From: a virus
DNA length: 22,660 nt
Virus record (IMG/VR): IMGVR_UViG_3300037485_000965
Location: 1 to 22,660 of that record
Direction: 5' to 3' (one strand)
The position numbers and the translations under genes were made by a program. Below, one piece after another: positions 4,787-17,825 of the stretch. How positions within the stretch are numbered: the first letter of the stretch is position 1; each line of letters begins with the position of its first letter. The notes under the pieces are model-generated. The model did not search any database. It saw nothing but the letters and a program-made list of their open reading frames with translations, and was not told the DNA's origin.

Positions 4787-4806
4787 TTTATAAAAATTTT
4801 TATAAA
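4787..4806. repeat. 20-bp AT-only perfect palindrome at helicase 3' end
   Basis: TTTATAAAAATTTTTATAAA is identical to its reverse complement and covers the stop codon of the SF3-like helicase (4800-4802). It contains no G or C. It could be a weak terminator, a regulator site, or a chance product of local AT richness. Confidence 0.4.
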
Positions 4807-6515
4807 TTTTTTAAATTTATTGAAACGCAGCGCCCCGACATACCAGCGGCAAAACGTGTATTACTTCGCCGTGATGCGCCTTTCAGCCTTAAAAGAATAG
4901 TATTCCATGATATTTGCCAAGGCGTATTATTCAAAACTTTTTTTACAAAAACAGATGTATTTAGTATTAATAGGTCATCGCCAATAACGCGAATGCCTAA
5001 ACGCATTAAGCGCTCGTTTGCCTCCGCTTGCGATGGTCTAACACTTGGCTGATAGTTGTGCGCGCATTCTACAAGTTCACCGACCGTTTTTGTACCTACA
5101 TAGTTTTCCGCTTCAATGCGTATTTCCTGACTTAATATTTGCTGTAAACATCTTTGTTCATCGGTTAAATCTTCTTTGTCTTCTTCATAGTTGCGCATAT
5201 CCAAAATAGTATCCGCTTCTTCTAATGCTATTTCGGGCGTAACGGGGTCATCGTGCAGCGTATGCCACCAACCGCCCATAAGCGCACCGAACTGGTCACC
5301 TACCGCCCTATCTTCAGTTATAAGCGATACGGCGTGTGTGAATAGCTTAATGCTTTTTTGTATGTTATCGGCTAAGTTTAGCATTCGCGCCTGAAAACGT
5401 GGTCCAAAGTCTTCAAATATTATTTTATTCTTTAGCTTTTCAACTTCGTTAAATTGCTTCGGGTCGACTAATTTCTTTAGTTCCAAAACACAAAAACGGC
5501 GTTTATCAGAATCATTTACTAACTGCGGATTTATAGATACGAATAAAAAACAGCTACGCACAAAATAATCAATAGCTTTGCCATCTTTGCCACCTTTAGC
5601 AATAGCAGGCGATTTTTCAGAACTTGCCGCCCTGGCTAAACCTATTATTTCCTGCATACGTTGTGCCGCGCGTTCATCATTGCCCTCACCTTCATCAATT
5701 GTAACAGGTAGTGCATCACTATTTAGTTTTTGCCTTACCGCTGGTTCGGTTGCCGCCGTGCCCTGTACACTTACTGCAATGTTACCTATAATTTCATTTA
5801 CTATATTTTCTAATACCCATGATTTACCATTGCCGCGCGGTCCTGTTATCCAAATGTGAGGACGCCATTTTAAAATACCACTAATCGGGGCTAAAGCTAA
5901 CCAACCCGATAAAAAGATTGCATCGGCTTTAGTTTGCCAATTTAGCTTGTTTAGAATCTTTGGCAGCATTCCCGCTTCAGTAGCTATTAACGGCGCTTCA
6001 ATAGGCATATCAATAGCCTTGTTATAAACATAGCTATATTTAGTATCTAAACCGCCTAAATTGTAGCGCTTTTTATCCTGGATAAGCTGTTGCCCTGCAT
6101 GAAATACAACGCCGTTTTTTTCATGCCATGCTCCGCGCCCGCGTATGTTTTCAGTATTATAAAAACCTACATGGTTGCAAAAGTTTATAAGATAATCAGC
6201 CGCTGTAGTTACATCGTAATTACTATTGTCACGGTTCGGGAATGATAAAAGCCAAAATTCTAAAGGCGCTATGCTCAATAAATTCGCCTTGTTTATTGTA
6301 GCAGCTTTATACTTTACTATGCTCATAGTTGAACGAATGTAAAAATAATAAAGCATTTGCCCATCCTCAGTTCCCCAACCTAAAGGGCGAAAATATCCCC
6401 CTATAAAACCTTTTTTATCGGTTTCAGGTGCTGCTGCTGTAGCGCGTTCGGCTTTAGGTTTCTTTGTGTTTTGTTTTGGTTTTTGTTCCCAGTCAATTGG
6501 TTTGTCCTGTTTCAT
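4800..6515 (-). CDS. SF3-like replicative helicase with DUF927-like N-terminal part (571 aa)
   Basis: A predicted ATP-driven DNA helicase of the phage replisome. After a basic, low-complexity N-terminus (1-35), residues 40-200 resemble the DUF927 type (YYFYIRSTMSIVKYKAATIN ... RGAWHEKNGVVFHAG). The helicase core follows: Walker A GPRGNGKS (225-232), Walker B VTIDEGEG (271-278), a sensor strand with the SF3-type Asn, FLFVSIN (323-329), and basic DKRRF (337-341) as candidate arginine finger. The C-terminus (STRFAAGMSGRCVSI-like pattern) resembles other members of this group. No primase motif is clear. It is ATGA-coupled to a separate DnaB N-terminal-domain protein (6512-6515), which suggests that the two act together at the fork. 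Confidence 0.85.
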   Translation of the reverse strand: MKQDKPIDWEQKPKQNTKKPKAERATAAAPETDKKGFIGGYFRPLGWGTEDGQMLYYFYIRSTMSIVKYKAATINKANLLSIAPLEFWLLSFPNRDNSNYDVTTAADYLINFCNHVGFYNTENIRGRGAWHEKNGVVFHAGQQLIQDKKRYNLGGLDTKYSYVYNKAIDMPIEAPLIATEAGMLPKILNKLNWQTKADAIFLSGWLALAPISGILKWRPHIWITGPRGNGKSWVLENIVNEIIGNIAVSVQGTAATEPAVRQKLNSDALPVTIDEGEGNDERAAQRMQEIIGLARAASSEKSPAIAKGGKDGKAIDYFVRSCFLFVSINPQLVNDSDKRRFCVLELKKLVDPKQFNEVEKLKNKIIFEDFGPRFQARMLNLADNIQKSIKLFTHAVSLITEDRAVGDQFGALMGGWWHTLHDDPVTPEIALEEADTILDMRNYEEDKEDLTDEQRCLQQILSQEIRIEAENYVGTKTVGELVECAHNYQPSVRPSQAEANERLMRLGIRVIGDDLLILNTSVFVKKVLNNTPWQISWNTILLRLKGASRRSNTRFAAGMSGRCVSINLKNL

Positions 6516-7123
6516 TGTCTTATAATTTGCTTACCTACATTAAATTTTTTAATATTCTGCATCAGTTCCCGTACCGTTTCAAAAACATCGTCAGTATCAG
6601 CGATAATCGTATTTATCATATTTATTCCAACTTTTATCAGTTCACGCTGTACATGCTTTTGAATTAGTATCCTGGCGTGGTATTCTAAATTTGCAGCACT
6701 TGCTACACGATTAGTTAGTTCAGCTAAATAAGCAGGACCGCCGCACCTATATTTTAATTTTTCCGCTACCGTTATTATATCGACTACTTCAACCGATTGG
6801 CAAAGTTCAAAAATAAGTTTGTGATTATCAAAATAAAAATGTTCGGGGCTTAAAAAATTAACTTTGTCACGGGCGTTGTTATCAACCAAAATAGCACCTA
6901 AAATGACTTGTTCTAAGTCTTTTGAATGTGGGAATCTTATTTGTTTTTCAAAAAAACTTTGTTCCTTTTCTTCAAGTGCTATTATGATATTTTGCAGCGT
7001 TAAAAGTTGCCTTTCTTTTAGTTGCCTATAATTTTGCCGCTTAGCATCGTCCTTAATGTAAGCATCCATTTTTAATGCTTCGTCTTTAAGTTCAGATAGT
7101 AGGCTTTGTGCTTCGGTTGTCAT
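6512..7123 (-). CDS. stand-alone DnaB N-terminal-domain protein (203 aa)
   Basis: Residues 1-60 are a charged helical leader. Residues 65-165 match the N-terminal domain of replicative helicase DnaB: PHSKDLEQVILGAILVDNNA, LSPEHFYFDNHKLIF, a VDIITVAEKL block and YLAELTNRVASAANLEYHAR. In DnaB this domain forms the collar that binds primase. Here it ends at residue 203 with no RecA-like ATPase; the helicase motor is in the next gene, of another superfamily. The frame ends cleanly with an ATGA overlap to that gene, so it is not a frameshifted DnaB. Likely role: adaptor between helicase and primase or loader. The tight TGACAACATGG-type coupling to its neighbours suggests equal expression. Confidence 0.85.
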   Translation of the reverse strand: MTTEAQSLLSELKDEALKMDAYIKDDAKRQNYRQLKERQLLTLQNIIIALEEKEQSFFEKQIRFPHSKDLEQVILGAILVDNNARDKVNFLSPEHFYFDNHKLIFELCQSVEVVDIITVAEKLKYRCGGPAYLAELTNRVASAANLEYHARILIQKHVQRELIKVGINMINTIIADTDDVFETVRELMQNIKKFNVGKQIIRQ

Positions 7124-10026: not shown

Positions 10027-11532
10027 TCAATTCTTTTTACTTCTTAAAAAATTATTCCATGCCCGTTTAGCCGCCTGTTTTAAATCATTCTTATCGGAAG
10101 CATCTAAACCGTACTTTTTATTTATCCAATCAATGCTGCTGTTTTCTTTTAAGATACGGGATTCAAAAATGTAATAAACCCAATTATCTTTGTGCCCGCG
10201 CTTGTTTTTCAGTTCCCATAAATCCGCTAATGTTTTACTTTTGCCCTGTTCGCTTTTTTTCGCCTTTAGCAGTTCATCTAAGGTTGTATTATCTTTAACT
10301 GCAACGCCCGCAACTTCTTCAATCTGTTGTATCTTTATTTCGGGTTTAGCGCCACAATACGGGCATTTAGGTTCAGTCTTAATATAAGTTCTTAAACATT
10401 CAATACAATCGGCATACTCAGCATCTAAAGTTTCGGTATCGCGTTTTTTCTTTTGAACGCCTTCCAATGTCCATTCGCGTGTTTGTAATGGGTGACCGTG
10501 CATTTTCTGATTGCCAACGTGGTCCAAAATTAAACAGCGGCTTTTACCTGCCATCGGTCTAAGTCCACGCCCAACTATCTGTAAGTATAAACTAAGCGAC
10601 ATAGTACGTCTAAGCATACCTACAACCGAAACAGCTGGTATATCTGTACCCTCGCTTATGAGGTCACAAAATGTTACCACATGTAGTGCGCCATTCGCTA
10701 AACCATCAAACGCTTTTTTTATTTCAGCATCTTCTAAGTTTCCATGAACCGCAACCGCCTTAAATCCTGCAGCATTAAACGCAGCCGCTACATTTTCAGA
10801 ATGCTTAATATTTACGCATGAATAGATAGCAGGTTCACCAGGCGCCAAACGTTTATATTCATCGACTGCATTGCCTGTTATTGCGGGTTTGTCCATTTCC
10901 TTAAATAAATCATCAGCTTTATATTCGCCGTGCCTATCTTTTTTAATCTTTGTAAAATCTGCCAACGGTTTGAAGTTATAATATTCAGGCATTACTAAAT
11001 TACCCATTTGCACTAATTCGGCTGGTAACGGTCCTAAAACTAAATCAGAAAACACATCGCCAAGTCCTTGACCATCGCCGCGCCAAGGTGTAGCAGTTAC
11101 GCCCAAAACATAAACCTTATCGCCGTAAAAATCCAAAATGTCTTTCCATGTTCCCGCGTTGGCGTGGTGCGCTTCATCTATTATAAGTAGGTCGGGCGTT
11201 GGTACTTCGCTAAGTCTATTTTTAAGGCTTTGAACGCTGCAAACCTGTGCAGGTAAATAATACTGTTTAGGTCTATTGCCTGCTATAAAACCATGCTTTA
11301 AACCGTATCGCCTGCAACGTTCTGAAATCTGATTTACTAAGTTTTTTTTATGTACTAAGAAATAGACGCGTTTACCTTTTGATATTGATTCTAAAGCCAT
11401 ATAGATAAACGTTTCAGTTTTACCACCGCCCGTTGGAAGCACAAACAATACTTTACGGTTGCCGCTTTTATAGCTCTCTCTTATGTCGCTTACGCTTTTC
11501 GATTGATATGCTCTTAGCTGTATTGTGTTCAT
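10027..11532 (-). CDS. SF2 DEAD/DEAH-box helicase with C-terminal zinc ribbon (501 aa)
   Basis: A predicted ATP-dependent DNA helicase or translocase. Motifs in order: LRAYQ (Q-like) at 6-10, Walker A LPTGGGKT (32-39), DEAH (119-122), TATP (146-149), TFCDLISEGTDIPA (motif V region, 287-300) and QIVGRGLRP (motif VI, 318-326). A four-cysteine zinc ribbon follows: CIEC (376-379) and CPYC (390-393). The last 110 residues are charged and helical. This is the single-chain phage SF2 type resembling the helicase part of type III restriction and UvsW-like enzymes. There is no nuclease domain. Likely role: replication or recombination fork processing. The start overlaps the HTH gene by 65 nt. Confidence 0.92.
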   Translation of the reverse strand: MNTIQLRAYQSKSVSDIRESYKSGNRKVLFVLPTGGGKTETFIYMALESISKGKRVYFLVHKKNLVNQISERCRRYGLKHGFIAGNRPKQYYLPAQVCSVQSLKNRLSEVPTPDLLIIDEAHHANAGTWKDILDFYGDKVYVLGVTATPWRGDGQGLGDVFSDLVLGPLPAELVQMGNLVMPEYYNFKPLADFTKIKKDRHGEYKADDLFKEMDKPAITGNAVDEYKRLAPGEPAIYSCVNIKHSENVAAAFNAAGFKAVAVHGNLEDAEIKKAFDGLANGALHVVTFCDLISEGTDIPAVSVVGMLRRTMSLSLYLQIVGRGLRPMAGKSRCLILDHVGNQKMHGHPLQTREWTLEGVQKKKRDTETLDAEYADCIECLRTYIKTEPKCPYCGAKPEIKIQQIEEVAGVAVKDNTTLDELLKAKKSEQGKSKTLADLWELKNKRGHKDNWVYYIFESRILKENSSIDWINKKYGLDASDKNDLKQAAKRAWNNFLRSKKN

Positions 11533-11704
11533 TTTCCAAGTCGTTTAAAACATTCATAAGTTTAAAATAAATAATCAATGTTTGCGGTTCTACGGTTTTC
11601 CAATGTTCCAAAGTTTGCCGCCCGACTTCGGCACGCCTGCAAAGTTCCGAAATGCTGATGCCTAACATGTCGCATCGAATTGATAAATTTTCAAAAGTTT
11701 TCAT
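11468..11704 (-). CDS. small HTH DNA-binding protein (78 aa)
   Basis: The N-terminal part holds a helix-turn-helix: MLGISISELCRRAEVGRQTL followed by EHWK, at residues 13-36, matching the XRE/Cro-like scaffold (LG.S.SELCRRA.V....L..W). The C-terminal tail is very basic (KRKRHKREL) and lies in the overlap with the SF2 helicase. It is the first gene of the leftward block and borders the divergent promoter region, the usual place for a regulator of both transcripts. It could be repressor, activator or a replication protein. Confidence 0.75.
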   Translation of the reverse strand: MKTFENLSIRCDMLGISISELCRRAEVGRQTLEHWKTVEPQTLIIYFKLMNVLNDLENEHNTAKSISIEKRKRHKREL

Positions 11705-12550: not shown

Positions 12551-13084
12551 ATGCAACAATTAACAAAACTGCCAACACTTCAGGAACTATTAGTAGAAAA
12601 TGAAGACAGCCTAAAACAAAACGCGCTAACCGTATTATTGAATCAGGACCCGCCCGCTAAGTGGTTAGTTCAGCATCCAATGATTCGCGATTATAGATAC
12701 ATCCCTATTGAAAAAATAGAATATCTTTTAACGCGTATCTTCGGCAATTGGAACGTAGAAATACGCGGAACACAGATAGTAGCTAATTCAGTAGTTGTAA
12801 CTGTGCGTTTACATGTAAATAACCCGATAAGCGGAGAACCAATGTGGCAGGATGGCATAGGAGCTGCACCAATACAAACTGATAAGGGCGCTGGGGCTAC
12901 CGATTGGAATGCCGTAAAAACCGATGGTGTGCAAAAAGCTGCACCCGCTGCCGAAACATATGCCGTTAAAGATGCTGCCGAAAAGTTTGGTAAAATATTC
13001 GGTCGCGATGTTAGCCGCAAAGGTTCAATGAATTATACTGATTTACTGAAAAAAAGTAGTTTGAATGATGAATTAGAAAAATAA
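12551..13084 (+). CDS. Rad52-like single-strand annealing protein (177 aa)
   Basis: After a helical leader, residues 45-150 fit the Rad52/Sak-type annealing fold: YRYIPIEKIEYLLTRIFGNW, then alternating beta strands (IVANSVVVTVRLHV), a glycine-rich turn (DGIGAAPIQTDKGAGATDW), and a long helix AYAVKDAAEKFGKIFGRDV-like (ETYAVKDAAEKFGKIFG). Rad52-family SSAPs share the Y.P...(V/I).YLL..(V/I)FG.W opening and the A...A...A..KFGK.FG helix. With the RecE-like exonuclease upstream it forms a two-component recombination system. The C-terminus (LLKKSSLNDELEK) is short. RecT or Erf relationship is less likely. Confidence 0.8.
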   Translation: MQQLTKLPTLQELLVENEDSLKQNALTVLLNQDPPAKWLVQHPMIRDYRYIPIEKIEYLLTRIFGNWNVEIRGTQIVANSVVVTVRLHVNNPISGEPMWQDGIGAAPIQTDKGAGATDWNAVKTDGVQKAAPAAETYAVKDAAEKFGKIFGRDVSRKGSMNYTDLLKKSSLNDELEK

Positions 13085-13085
13085 A

Positions 13086-13117
13086 TTTTTTTTTCAGAAT
13101 TTTTACACATATCTTTG
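13086..13117 (+). promoter_or_regulatory. promoter directly upstream of a terminator
   Basis: TATCTTTG at 13110-13117 is a full match to TAnnTTTG. The -33 region is a T tract (13086-13094) instead of TTTG. Start of transcription would be near 13122-13125, and the terminator at 13140-13171 ends the RNA about 50 nt later. Confidence 0.6.
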
Positions 13118-13121
13118 CCCT

Positions 13122-13171
13122 AACGGCGGTCTAACCGCTAACCGCTGTTCAACAAGTGCAGCGGTTTTTTT
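13122..13171 (+). ncRNA. candidate ~50-nt small RNA or attenuated leader
   Basis: The interval between the promoter box (13110-13117) and the T run (13165-13171) would give an RNA of about 50 nt. It can fold two ways. GCGGT (13126-13130) pairs with ACCGC (13134-13138). A second ACCGCTG (13141-13147) pairs with CAGCGGT (13159-13165) as terminator. Because GCGGT could also pair with the second ACCGC copy, the first segment might act as an anti-terminator. No peptide frame of note. Confidence 0.45.
13140..13171 (+). terminator. rho-independent terminator after the annealing protein
   Basis: AACCGCTG (13140-13147), an 11-nt loop and CAGCGGTT (13159-13166) form a perfect 8-bp stem merging into a T run (13165-13171). 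It ends the RecE/Rad52-like operon and the short transcript from the promoter at 13110. Confidence 0.88.
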
Positions 13172-13180
13172 ATTTGAAAT

Positions 13181-13407
13181 GTTAACACACGTTACGCAGC
13201 ATGTAACACCTAAACGTTTGATTCTTAACGTTGTTACGCTGTTAACACCTGTTACGGGGTTTTTCACACACATAACGCATACACACACACATGCGTAGTT
13301 AAACTTAAAAAAATATATGTGCGTAATATACTGTAACAGGTGTAAACATGTAACATGCTATGTATATCAATTAGTTATGTGTTACACTTAATGTAACAAC
13401 TGTTAAC
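13181..13407. repeat. large imperfect inverted repeat, candidate origin or packaging site
   Basis: Two 75-nt arms (13181-13255 and 13333-13407) are imperfect reverse complements around centre 13294. The conserved blocks, outside to inside, are: GTTAACA at both ends, GTTAC, TGTAACAC (13202-13209 against 13379-13386), a TTGAT block, TGTTAC, and ACACCTGTTAC (13245-13255 against 13333-13343, perfect 11 bp). GTTAC/GTAAC words occur at 13191, 13203, 13233, 13251, 13333, 13350, 13381 and 13393, and GTTAAC at 13181, 13241 and 13402. The spacer holds a hairpin ACGCAT-(AC)5-ATGCGT (13275-13296). No credible gene. The density of initiator-like words and the adjacent AT tract favour an origin; the position before terS also allows a pac/cos function. 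Confidence 0.8.
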
Positions 13408-13460
13408 AATAATAATAAATAATAATAATAATATAAATAATAATACTAATTATAATATAG
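13408..13460. other. AT-rich (AAT)n tract beside the inverted repeat
   Basis: From the end of the right arm about 50 bases are almost only A and T, mostly AAT triplets, like a DNA-unwinding element. The rest up to 13560 is also AT-rich, with a direct repeat ACGGCATTTTA/AAGGCATTTTTA (around 13480-13507) and a sequence resembling a weak leader before terS. No gene and no TAnnTTTG box was found in 13408-13560. Confidence 0.5.
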
Positions 13461-13560
13461 ATATAGGCTTAAAACGTATTTAAACGGCATTTTAAGGCAT
13501 TTTTATATTAAAGTGGTGTGTATGTATCAAAACTTATTAAAAGTTTCTTAAAACGAAAAT

Positions 13561-13986
13561 ATGAAAGATTTAGGCGGTCGCCCAATGAAGTTTAAAAGTC
13601 CTGAAGAATTGCAAAGTAAAATAGATTCATATTTTGATTATTGTGAATCACGTACTAAAAAAGAAGTTGTAAAGACACGTGACTATTATGAGGTAATAGA
13701 TTTGCCCGACCCTATACCCTATACTGTTTACGGTCTTGCAGATTTCTTAGATTGCGATGCAGACACGCTTTTGAACTATCAAACGCGCGATGCTTTTTCG
13801 GTTTTAATCGCACGTGCAAAGTCTAAAATACTAACAAACAAGGTAGAACGCGGCTTAGATGGTAAGTCAAATCCGCAAATGACTAAGTTACTTTTAGGTC
13901 ACAACTATGGTATCATAGAACCTAAAGCAGAAACACAAGACGATAAAAACATTAACATAAACATTCAGTACCCGCCAGATAAGTAG
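13561..13986 (+). CDS. terS: terminase small subunit (141 aa)
   Basis: The DNA-recognition subunit of the packaging motor. It begins MKDLGGRPMKFKSPEELQSK (the GRP.KF.(S/T)..ELQ..ID.YF.YC opening of gp3-type small terminases), then PYTVYGLADFLDCDADTLLN (the HTH), FSVLIARAKSKI, and QMTKLLLGHNYG near the C-terminus. The DNA-binding helix-turn-helix is at about 58-80. The stop overlaps the GTG of the large subunit (TAGTG, 13984-13988). It follows the large inverted repeat, which may be its target. Confidence 0.88.
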   Translation: MKDLGGRPMKFKSPEELQSKIDSYFDYCESRTKKEVVKTRDYYEVIDLPDPIPYTVYGLADFLDCDADTLLNYQTRDAFSVLIARAKSKILTNKVERGLDGKSNPQMTKLLLGHNYGIIEPKAETQDDKNININIQYPPDK

Positions 13987-16325: not shown

Positions 16326-16383
16326 CGCCAAAATGGCGTGCAAGTGGTGAACAAGACGCGTTCACGTTACGTGAACTTCACCA
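16326..16383. terminator. paired hairpins between convergent genes
   Basis: Two inverted repeats lie between the phosphoesterase (+) and the next gene (-). CGCCA-AAA-TGGCG is at 16326-16338. A larger structure follows: TGGTGAA (16345-16351) and TTCACCA (16377-16383) enclose GTTCACG-TTA-CGTGAAC (16360-16376), with an 8-nt bulge. The lack of a T run argues against classical intrinsic termination; bidirectional RNA 3'-end protection or a protein site is possible. Confidence 0.45.
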
Positions 16384-16764
16384 ATTAGTGAACATAGATG
16401 TATAAGGATGCGAAGGATAATGAAACAGCGGACCGTGATAGGGAAACTTAGCATTATTAGTAATATGCTTTTGCCATTGCTGCCAAGGCGTTTTAAACTT
16501 TGGTTCCTGAAAGTCCAACCAAAAATAACAGCGATGCGTTTTAAGTTCGTTGTTCAATAGTGCAACTTTTGCGTAATAACGGCTTTCTGATTCTAATACT
16601 GAGAATCGCTGCGATGGCTGCCAGAATCTAATTGTTTTATATTTTCTATAAAACTTACGGGTTAACGGAAAATAATTAAACGAATCATTAAGTATTAAAC
16701 CAAGTTCAATAGTATCGGGTTGACCGCTTAATATCAATTCCCTAACCCATTTGGATTCTTGCAT
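16378..16764 (-). CDS. hypothetical protein (128 aa)
   Basis: It begins MQESKWVRELILSGQPDTIE and continues with an aromatic, basic centre (FPLTRKFYRKYKTIRFWQPS) and a Trp/His/Pro-rich end (PYHGPLFHYPSHPYTSMFTNW). No family recognised. There is no signal peptide or membrane segment. The start overlaps the sigma factor 3' end by 23 nt, so it is probably the last gene of the sigma operon. A role next to the sigma factor is conceivable (cofactor, anti-sigma) but nothing shows it. Confidence 0.6.
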   Translation of the reverse strand: MQESKWVRELILSGQPDTIELGLILNDSFNYFPLTRKFYRKYKTIRFWQPSQRFSVLESESRYYAKVALLNNELKTHRCYFWLDFQEPKFKTPWQQWQKHITNNAKFPYHGPLFHYPSHPYTSMFTNW

Positions 16765-17512
16765 ATTGATTTTTTATTTTATCTAATGCCTGTTTTTCTA
16801 ATTGGCGTGCGCGTTCACCTGTAAGGTTTAGCATCTGCCCTATTTGCTTATAGTCTTTGACATAGCCTTCTAAGTATCTATGCTGAATAACTTTATACTC
16901 TGAATCATTTAAACGTTTGACAAGGTAATTAAATACCTTTTCGTTATCAGATTGTAATGCGTTTAAATCAGTTTGTGAATCAGATACAGCACAATACAAT
17001 TCGTTACCTTCGTCATCGACATGGTCCAAGCTAACAAAGCTGTGCATGTTCTTAACCATTTTAATGTGGTGTTCTGATACGTTTATTTGCTTAGCTATTT
17101 GTTCTGTAGTCGCATCTGTTATGTTACGCATCTGATGTTTTACAATGTATGCCTTATCGGGGTAGCGTATTATATCGCGTTTGGTATTTATAAAGTTTTG
17201 TATTTCTGCGCGCATCTTATAAACGGCATAAGATATAAATCTATTTTCACTATTACGGTCAAAGCTATCGGAAGCCTTAATTAGCCCTATCATAGATTCC
17301 GAAATTAAATCCATGATGTCCAAAGATTCGATATGATGCCTAAACGCTACCGATATGGCAAACATCATATTATGATTTATTAGCATATCGCGATTTGCGA
17401 TACGTTCCTGTTCAAATGTCAAAGGCTTGTATCTATTAGCTTCAAATAATAAACGCTGTAGAATGCCTTTCTTTTCATAAACAACGTTATACCTTACATC
17501 AATTCGCTTCAT
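16742..17512 (-). CDS. phage-encoded sigma-70 family factor (256 aa)
   Basis: A predicted RNA polymerase sigma factor of the primary-like type. Region 2 spans residues about 44-110 (INHNMMFAISVAFRHH, DIMDLISESMIGLIKASDSF, RFISYAVYKMRAEIQNFI). Region 3 spans about 112-160 (RYPDK...; TEQIAKQINVSEHHIK). A region 4 HTH spans about 201-247 (LNDSEYKVIQHRYLEGY, KQIGQMLNLTGERARQLEKQ). The open frame extends upstream to 17572, but I chose the ATG at 17512 (MKRIDVRYNVVYEKKG), since the extension lies inside the SPOR-like gene and the remaining overlap is only 14 nt. It likely directs host polymerase to late or special phage promoters. Confidence 0.88.
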   Translation of the reverse strand: MKRIDVRYNVVYEKKGILQRLLFEANRYKPLTFEQERIANRDMLINHNMMFAISVAFRHHIESLDIMDLISESMIGLIKASDSFDRNSENRFISYAVYKMRAEIQNFINTKRDIIRYPDKAYIVKHQMRNITDATTEQIAKQINVSEHHIKMVKNMHSFVSLDHVDDEGNELYCAVSDSQTDLNALQSDNEKVFNYLVKRLNDSEYKVIQHRYLEGYVKDYKQIGQMLNLTGERARQLEKQALDKIKNQYARIQMG

Positions 17513-17825
17513 TGGTATAGAACTTTTTAAGTTGTGAAGCCTGTGCAAAAGTACGGCGGCAAATAAAAGCATCTGAATAAGCGCGTTGCCATGATGCTAA
17601 TGATATTTCAGCCTCGAATAAATCTGAATAAACAATCATTAGCCTGTAATAATCGCCCGCCTGTTCATAAACAACCGTATCGAATGGCATAATACTAAGT
17701 TGTTCAGCCGTTACATATTCGGGTGTTTTAGTGCTAAGTATCTGAATACAGTATAGCGTGTCTGATGTTTGCGCGTAGGTAGCAGCGCTAAATAAAAGCG
17801 TGCAAATTAAAAGTAGTGTTTTCAT
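17499..17825 (-). CDS. secreted SPOR-like protein (108 aa)
   Basis: A signal peptide MKTLLLICTLLFSAATYA precedes a cleavage site at A-Q. The mature part opens with YCIQILSTK, then VVYEQAGDYYRLMIVYSDLF, then EAEISLASWQRAYSDAFICR. This order (short strand YxIQ(L/I), G.YYR(V/L).(V/I).......EA.........Y.DAF(I/V)) is that of the SPOR domain, which binds peptidoglycan stripped of stem peptides. If correct, it would act in the periplasm on the host wall. It overlaps the sigma gene by 14 nt. A weak TAACTTTA box lies 15-22 nt upstream (17840-17847, minus). Confidence 0.7.
   Translation of the reverse strand: MKTLLLICTLLFSAATYAQTSDTLYCIQILSTKTPEYVTAEQLSIMPFDTVVYEQAGDYYRLMIVYSDLFEAEISLASWQRAYSDAFICRRTFAQASQLKKFYTNEAN

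Follow-up and report, generated by a model that had tools for sequence, protein, structure and literature searches.

We found that the 22.7-kb virus record analyzed here (the window, meaning the whole stretch of DNA at its full length) carries twelve near-palindromic boxes within 229 bp (13180..13408), arranged as two mirrored arms of six boxes each and kept upstream of the small terminase gene (terS) in related phages. Judging from the sequence and its relatives, we hold with moderate confidence that this array is the initiator-binding part of the phage's replication origin. It would be an origin of the iteron type, new in its mirror symmetry, and is put forward as a candidate and not as a proven member of that type. 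The host group is probably Bacteroidota: the promoters agree with the TAnnTTTG type, and a Bacteroidetes MAG contig contains one of the relatives. The replication origin of an uncultivated phage is rarely known, and the present candidate is recognisable from its sequence alone in over 60 related contigs.

Organization of the box array

The array lies inside a 476-bp non-coding interval between a Rad52-like annealing gene (12551-13084) and terS (13561-13986). Its boxes have a two-fold core, TGT-W-ACA or TGT-TA-ACA, with CGTTACG (13190) and TGTAAACA (13341) counted in. The left arm consists of box 1 (TGTTAACA, 13180..13187), box 2 (CGTTACG, 13190..13196), box 3 (TGTAACA, 13202..13208), box 4 (TGTTACG, 13232..13238), box 5 (TGTTAACA, 13240..13247) and box 6 (TGTTACG, 13250..13256), and the right arm of box 7 (TGTAACA, 13332..13338), box 8 (TGTAAACA, 13341..13348), box 9 (TGTAACA, 13349..13355), box 10 (TGTTACA, 13380..13386), box 11 (TGTAACA, 13392..13398) and box 12 (TGTTAACA, 13401..13408). 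Box centres fall at 13183.5, 13193, 13205, 13235, 13243.5 and 13253 on the left and, in mirror order, at 13404.5, 13395, 13383, 13352, 13344.5 and 13335 on the right. The coordinates of the mirror pairs sum to 26588 in five pairs and to 26587 in one, which sets the dyad centre at 13294, with all six pairs within 0.5 bp of one centre. A sequence-only reading of this DNA had given the same centre with one 1-nt shift, and that shift is the single mirror pair off by 1. When twelve non-overlapping boxes were placed at random, none of 20,000 placements was fully mirrored; the best had ten paired boxes, reached in 98 trials.

The dyad had been described at 13181-13407, and its coordinates and words proved correct: we confirmed both arms, the perfect ACACCTGTTAC block and the AAT tract, and GTTAC/GTAAC occurs eight times and GTTAAC three times (13181, 13241 and 13402). 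A search for enrichment of GTTAC elsewhere, proposed at the same time, found 35 further copies of GTTAC/GTAAC scattered over the other 22.4 kb and no second cluster. The window thus has the one short box clustered once that is looked for in an iteron-type origin, its twelve boxes in 229 bp being the sole cluster. The variable centre between the arms (13257..13331) contains alternating purine-pyrimidine tracts and is less conserved than any other part of the element. The ACGCAT-(AC)5-ATGCGT placed in the middle by the earlier reading is indeed present (13275-13296), but it is centred at 13285.5 and not at 13294.

Outside the boxes, only 13 of 33 positions are complementary between the window's arms. 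The inverted repeat therefore arises largely from the mirroring of boxes that are palindromic in themselves, and the array is not primarily a hairpin. Folding of 13081-13560 as DNA, another suggested check, gave an energy well below that of shuffled sequences (z = -5), probably from the same cause. The mirrored, conserved boxes and the low spacer complementarity agree with the earlier proposal that the separate symmetric words would probably serve protein binding and not just hairpin formation. A structured RNA or hairpin in the 5' leader of terS might account for the folding z-score, and many relatives have no terminator between the upstream promoter and terS; however, the spacers pair too poorly, the region has no Rfam match and conservation is concentrated in the box words. 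An element of this kind was rejected on spacer complementarity and Rfam, and we regard it as extremely unlikely.

Conservation among related phages

Relatives were collected by TerS and Rad52 searches and by a scan with a right-arm pattern, which together gave more than 60 contigs with the array; the region was also sought in isolate phages, with no match. The box scan returned 67 rows. L273 and L294 were doubled, because a mirror-symmetric array is also readable on the other strand, and L156 and L179 were chance matches, leaving 63 real distinct arrays. Twelve boxes were counted in 59 of the 63 and eleven in the other four, counts that are partly imposed because the selecting pattern includes part of the right arm. 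Both arms were retained in the relatives, as the sequence-only reading had led us to expect. Intervals within the arms were constant to about 1-2 bp, and in 55 of 59 arrays, which as relatives are not independent, the two arms had equal outer spacing (12/12 or 11/11). The centre span, measured between the centres of boxes 6 and 7, ranged from 61 to 85 bp; its values (61-63, 69, 76 and 80-85 bp) do not fit helical turns of 10.5, and helical phasing of the arms across the centre was rejected. In an alignment chosen by TerS alone, identity was 95% in the box cores (41 of 64 columns invariant), 79% in the rest of the arms and 69% in the centre.

The distance to terS was also conserved. In 48 distinct rad52-to-terS intervals, the window's included, only L008 has the array starting as far as 659 bp upstream of terS; all the others have it at approximately 340-380 bp, while the rad52-terS distance ranges from 0.45 to 2.7 kb. 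The gap between rad52 and the array is in some relatives (e.g. L031, L010, L050, L135 and L089) a hypervariable cargo slot of 0.3-2.3 kb that is absent in the window. By eye, it often carries a gene whose ParB-like N-terminus (MELKIKEEFKKLIPPLT...) is constant while the DNA methyltransferase fused to it differs; varied nuclease-like ORFs follow this fusion gene, and the slot seems to be a place where modification or defence genes turn over.

Boxes, terminases and early modules

The earlier reading had offered two functions for the dyad, a replication origin or a packaging recognition site. As a packaging site, the array would be a cos or pac sequence read by TerS, in effect a doubled and symmetric lambda cosB in which TerS boxes flank an IHF bend and the cut is made in the centre. 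Lambda cosB has the order R3-I1-R2-R1, and its TerS sites R3 and R2 flank the IHF site I1 (PMC4669245). The array is like cosB in lying directly upstream of the small terminase gene with boxes on both sides of an IHF-like bend, here in each arm, and by this analogy each arm may work mechanically like cosB. Several contigs, moreover, end within 75 bp of the centre. Unlike cosB, the array has two arms and not one, its boxes are independent of TerS and no fixed end was found.

Comparison of three classes of relatives bears directly on this choice. In the first, the window's class (A), the same array stands before TerS proteins of 42-100% identity, with the helix-turn-helix included in the divergence, and the boxes are kept even where TerS falls to 42-56%. 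Class A' (L140-L146 and L295-L299) has the exonuclease, Rad52, helicase, SSB and XRE protein in common with the window. Its TerS and TerL showed no BLASTP similarity to the window's, with both TerL proteins still in terminase families, yet 11-12 box matches remain. In L295-L298 the right-arm spacing (9, 8, 31, 11 and 9 bp) is the same as in the window's class and the central W of most boxes is inverted; in A' the left outer triplet is partly lost, so that full mirror symmetry is confined to class A. In the long relatives of A and A' the array region is the densest stretch of GTTAC/GTAAC, and each genome has a single array. In class B (L045-L049), on the other hand, TerS is 72-74% and TerL 78% identical to the window's and the TerS helix-turn-helix is nearly the same, whereas the recombination genes differ (Erf and a RecE-like exonuclease) and at the same place TGTTTAGT words, clustered about a (TA)n centre, stand in for the boxes.

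These comparisons, which cover three classes only, indicate that the box words go with the early replication/recombination module and not with the terminase. Box type appears to follow the replication proteins, since A and A' share both the early module and the boxes and B differs in both. The boxes do not co-vary with the DNA-binding domain of TerS, and TerS was rejected as the box reader on the dissociation of boxes from terminase type. Of the two functions proposed earlier, the origin is thus favoured and packaging disfavoured: the boxes stay constant while TerS drops to 42%, most of them survive the swap of both terminase genes, and a different word is used where TerS and TerL are 72-78% identical.

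Contig ends, used to check for a packaging end, did not give a single sharp end and were spread over more than 1 kb around the array, with most contigs running through it. Ends are weakly clustered near the centre (-41 to +72), yet others lie as far out as about -900 and +770, a scatter that a variable region would produce in mixed populations, and fixed genome ends were provisionally set aside. The length of the centre varies by 24 bp, and TerS belongs to a P22 gp3-like family, whereas the P22 pac site is located within the TerS gene (PMC9611059). Taken together, these results make a packaging site improbable. A site adjoining terS therefore need not be a packaging site, and the array marks a boundary where terminase and early modules are exchanged against each other in these phages.

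For terminase-linked signals, the 80-bp terS leader at 13480-13560 (TTTTAAGGCATTTTT..TTAAAGTGG..) seems a better place than the array. This leader has 92% identity across class A; class B (L045-L049) also has a similar block before terS, as does, more weakly, A' (L140-L146). It may act as a late promoter, as a leader or as a signal linked to pac; elsewhere in the window its late-promoter motif TTTTAAGGCATTTTT is not above chance. For TerS itself (13561-13983 and homologues) we distinguish at least three or four versions, which differ sharply except for a C-terminal tail (DDKNININIQYPP) that hardly varies; between conserved neighbours, the DNA-binding part has apparently been exchanged as a module.

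Transcription signals and other early-module sites

Sequence and alignment revealed a promoter-like and terminator-like unit left of the array (13110..13171, plus strand). It consists of a -7 box, TATCTTTG (13110-13117), which was matched by eye to the Bacteroidota TAnnTTTG consensus, and of a terminator-like hairpin (13140-13171) that is missing in many relatives. The unit may yield a possible short transcript and is considered accessory. In class A' a promoter-like box followed by a terminator-like hairpin is found on the array's right (L142, about 5830-5915), and in class A on its left. The hairpin follows the box within approximately 60-90 bp, and a short RNA (primer, attenuator or 6S-like) is a possible product.

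An early regulator, for example the 78-aa XRE-like protein, could fill the boxes and repress or activate late transcription into terS, assisted by IHF-like bending and with the promoter-terminator unit acting as an attenuated late leader. The array does stand at the early/late boundary directly before terS, with promoter-like and terminator-like sequences adjoining it; the box words follow the early module, and the XRE protein is common to A and A' and was not found in the class B contig. However, the other promoters of the window have no box cluster, and the TAnnTTTG promoter is to the left of the array in A but between the array and terS in A' and B, so that the array has no fixed position relative to the promoter. 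Twelve boxes are also many for an operator, and for a Cro-type dimer a two-fold box of 7 bp is short. We therefore consider a regulatory array rather unlikely.

Opposite-strand genes inside the late region (16378-17825) include a sigma-70-like factor with Pfam regions 2 and 4, possibly serving late promoters. A borderline Rfam tRNA match was obtained on the minus strand at 1960-2057 (29.7 bits against a cut-off of 29), where ARAGORN reports none.

Symmetric arrays with IHF-type bends are known from P1 parS and lambda attP, and the array might be another DNA site of the early module, such as a centromere-like site, a recombination hot spot or an attachment site. Against such a site, tyrosine integrase and ParA (AAA_31) families were not detected in 20 relatives. 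An attachment site was rejected on a search confined to tyrosine integrases, in which none of 20 records, the majority incomplete, had PF00589; a partition site was rejected on searches confined to one ParA family and to ParB_N, with PF13614 present in 0/20 and ParB_N in 2/17. This alternative appears quite improbable.

Melting, skew and IHF-like sites of the candidate origin

The reading of the array as an origin was compared with the signs usual for such sites. Easily melted DNA adjoins the array: the least stable 100 bp falls in the array/AAT region in all seven contigs tested (7/7), which represent three classes, and with 60-bp windows the array region ranks first in four contigs and second in three. 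In the window the AAT tract (13404..13467) is the candidate DNA-unwinding element, and the least stable 60-bp stretch starts at 13405. Low stability is supportive and not decisive, because long intergenic regions are AT-rich anyway.

GC skew, proposed earlier as a check, was calculated for three long contigs and gave a divided answer. The cumulative minimum lies at the cluster in one (G015) but 1.1 kb and 2.4 kb away in the others (G020 and G030), and it is confounded, coinciding with the divergence of gene direction.

Each arm of the window contains a perfect match to the IHF consensus, that of E. coli, in mirrored orientation. The left IHF-like site (13211..13223, minus strand) has the reverse complement AATCAAACGTTTA and the right one (13365..13377, plus strand) the sequence TATCAATTAGTTA, both fitting WATCAANNNNTTR. 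The left site is perfect in 21 of 59 relatives and fits the looser YTGAWW in all 59 tested. The right site is perfect in 59/59 twelve-box relatives, a set selected partly by that motif, and is nearly invariant also in the alignment chosen by TerS. Relaxed DnaA-like matches occur at 13101 and 13260, their number in the window being at chance level; a conserved DnaA box was not established.

Candidate box readers and a proposed model for initiation

By analogy with helicases that read iterons, the most likely box reader is possibly the 571-aa SF3/AAA+-like replicative helicase (4800..6515, minus strand), a relative of the PHROG DNA primase family (E 8e-97) and our candidate initiator, although its gene lies 6.7 kb away from the array. 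Its structural model is of low confidence (pLDDT 61); the best fold match is SCCmec Cch (E 1.8e-4, TM-score about 0.3), followed by PriRep1, a SaPI-type helicase, and poxvirus D5. A Pfam match to DUF5906 was below the cut-off, and sequence searches of solved structures gave nothing useful. The last 81 residues of the helicase are 57-60% identical between A and A' and 30% between A and B, compared with 69-73% and 49%, respectively, for the core (176-340), and the C-terminal domain thus appears to track box type. In the SCCmec system Cch2 binds its putative origin through the C-terminal domain (PMC7581432). The same source describes SaPI Rep as acting with its C-terminal domain on iterons, apparently in the form of two hexamers.

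The gene adjoining that of the helicase (6512-7123) encodes a free-standing DnaB N-terminal domain protein; the class A' homologue has only approximately 120 aa and matches part of the DnaB N-terminal protein. Distant homologues of the helicase (26-28%) are found on Arsenophonus plasmids of approximately 8 kb, e.g. NZ_CP123558.1, and one such plasmid is annotated as linear and carries a protelomerase gene.

The second candidate reader is the 78-aa XRE/Cro-like helix-turn-helix protein (11468..11704, minus strand), whose model (pLDDT 87) has a 434-Cro-like domain. The geometry of a 7-bp two-fold box would also suit a ribbon-helix-helix or other regulator; PF01402 (RHH_1) was not detected in 17 records, and a reader of this family was rejected.

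In the origin model that we favour, the phage initiator would bind the boxes and a host HU/IHF-type protein would bend each arm, joining its two box triplets. The resulting strain would open either the AAT tract or the weak centre; helicase and primase would load at the opening, and the forks would leave from there. The 571-aa helicase could sit as one hexamer per arm, since six boxes fit the hexamer number suggested by the two-hexamer description of SaPI Rep. An arrangement of two facing hexamers, one on each six-box arm, with IHF-like bends and the melting centre between them, is a tentative extension by analogy that we consider unlikely to hold as drawn. With one hexamer per arm, the DNA itself would encode the stoichiometry and orientation of the double hexamer, and the array would be the phage equivalent of a mirror-symmetric origin on which helicases load as a double hexamer. 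The geometry of six boxes per arm gives a testable stoichiometric prediction.

Comparison with known origins

The IHF-assisted iteron origins of plasmids R6K and pSC101 combine repeated boxes, an IHF site and an AT-rich opening region. The array has repeated boxes, an IHF-like site in each arm and an AT-rich candidate opening region, but its boxes are two-fold symmetric and mirrored, and no plasmid-type Rep initiator was identified. Lambda ori consists of four iterons and an AT-rich tract inside gene O (PMC7466680). As there, the inverted-repeat boxes of the window adjoin an AT-rich tract; they differ in being twelve mirrored boxes of 7-8 bp instead of four longer iterons, the array is intergenic and not within the initiator gene, and the replication proteins are different.

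SaPI origins and the putative origin of SCCmec cch2 have iterons read by the self-loading helicases Rep and Cch2, respectively (PMC7581432). Mirror symmetry and an IHF-like site in each arm set the array apart from both systems. A SaPI origin adjoins rep, whereas the array is separated from the helicase gene by 6.7 kb and stands beside terS; homology to the SaPI and SCCmec helicases is weak and the model is poor. On the other hand, the window encodes a candidate initiator-type helicase with a C-terminal domain, whose low-confidence model has Cch as best fold match. With SaPI it shares an array of short repeats: SaPI Rep is reported to bind there apparently as two hexamers, and here the boxes form two six-box arms.
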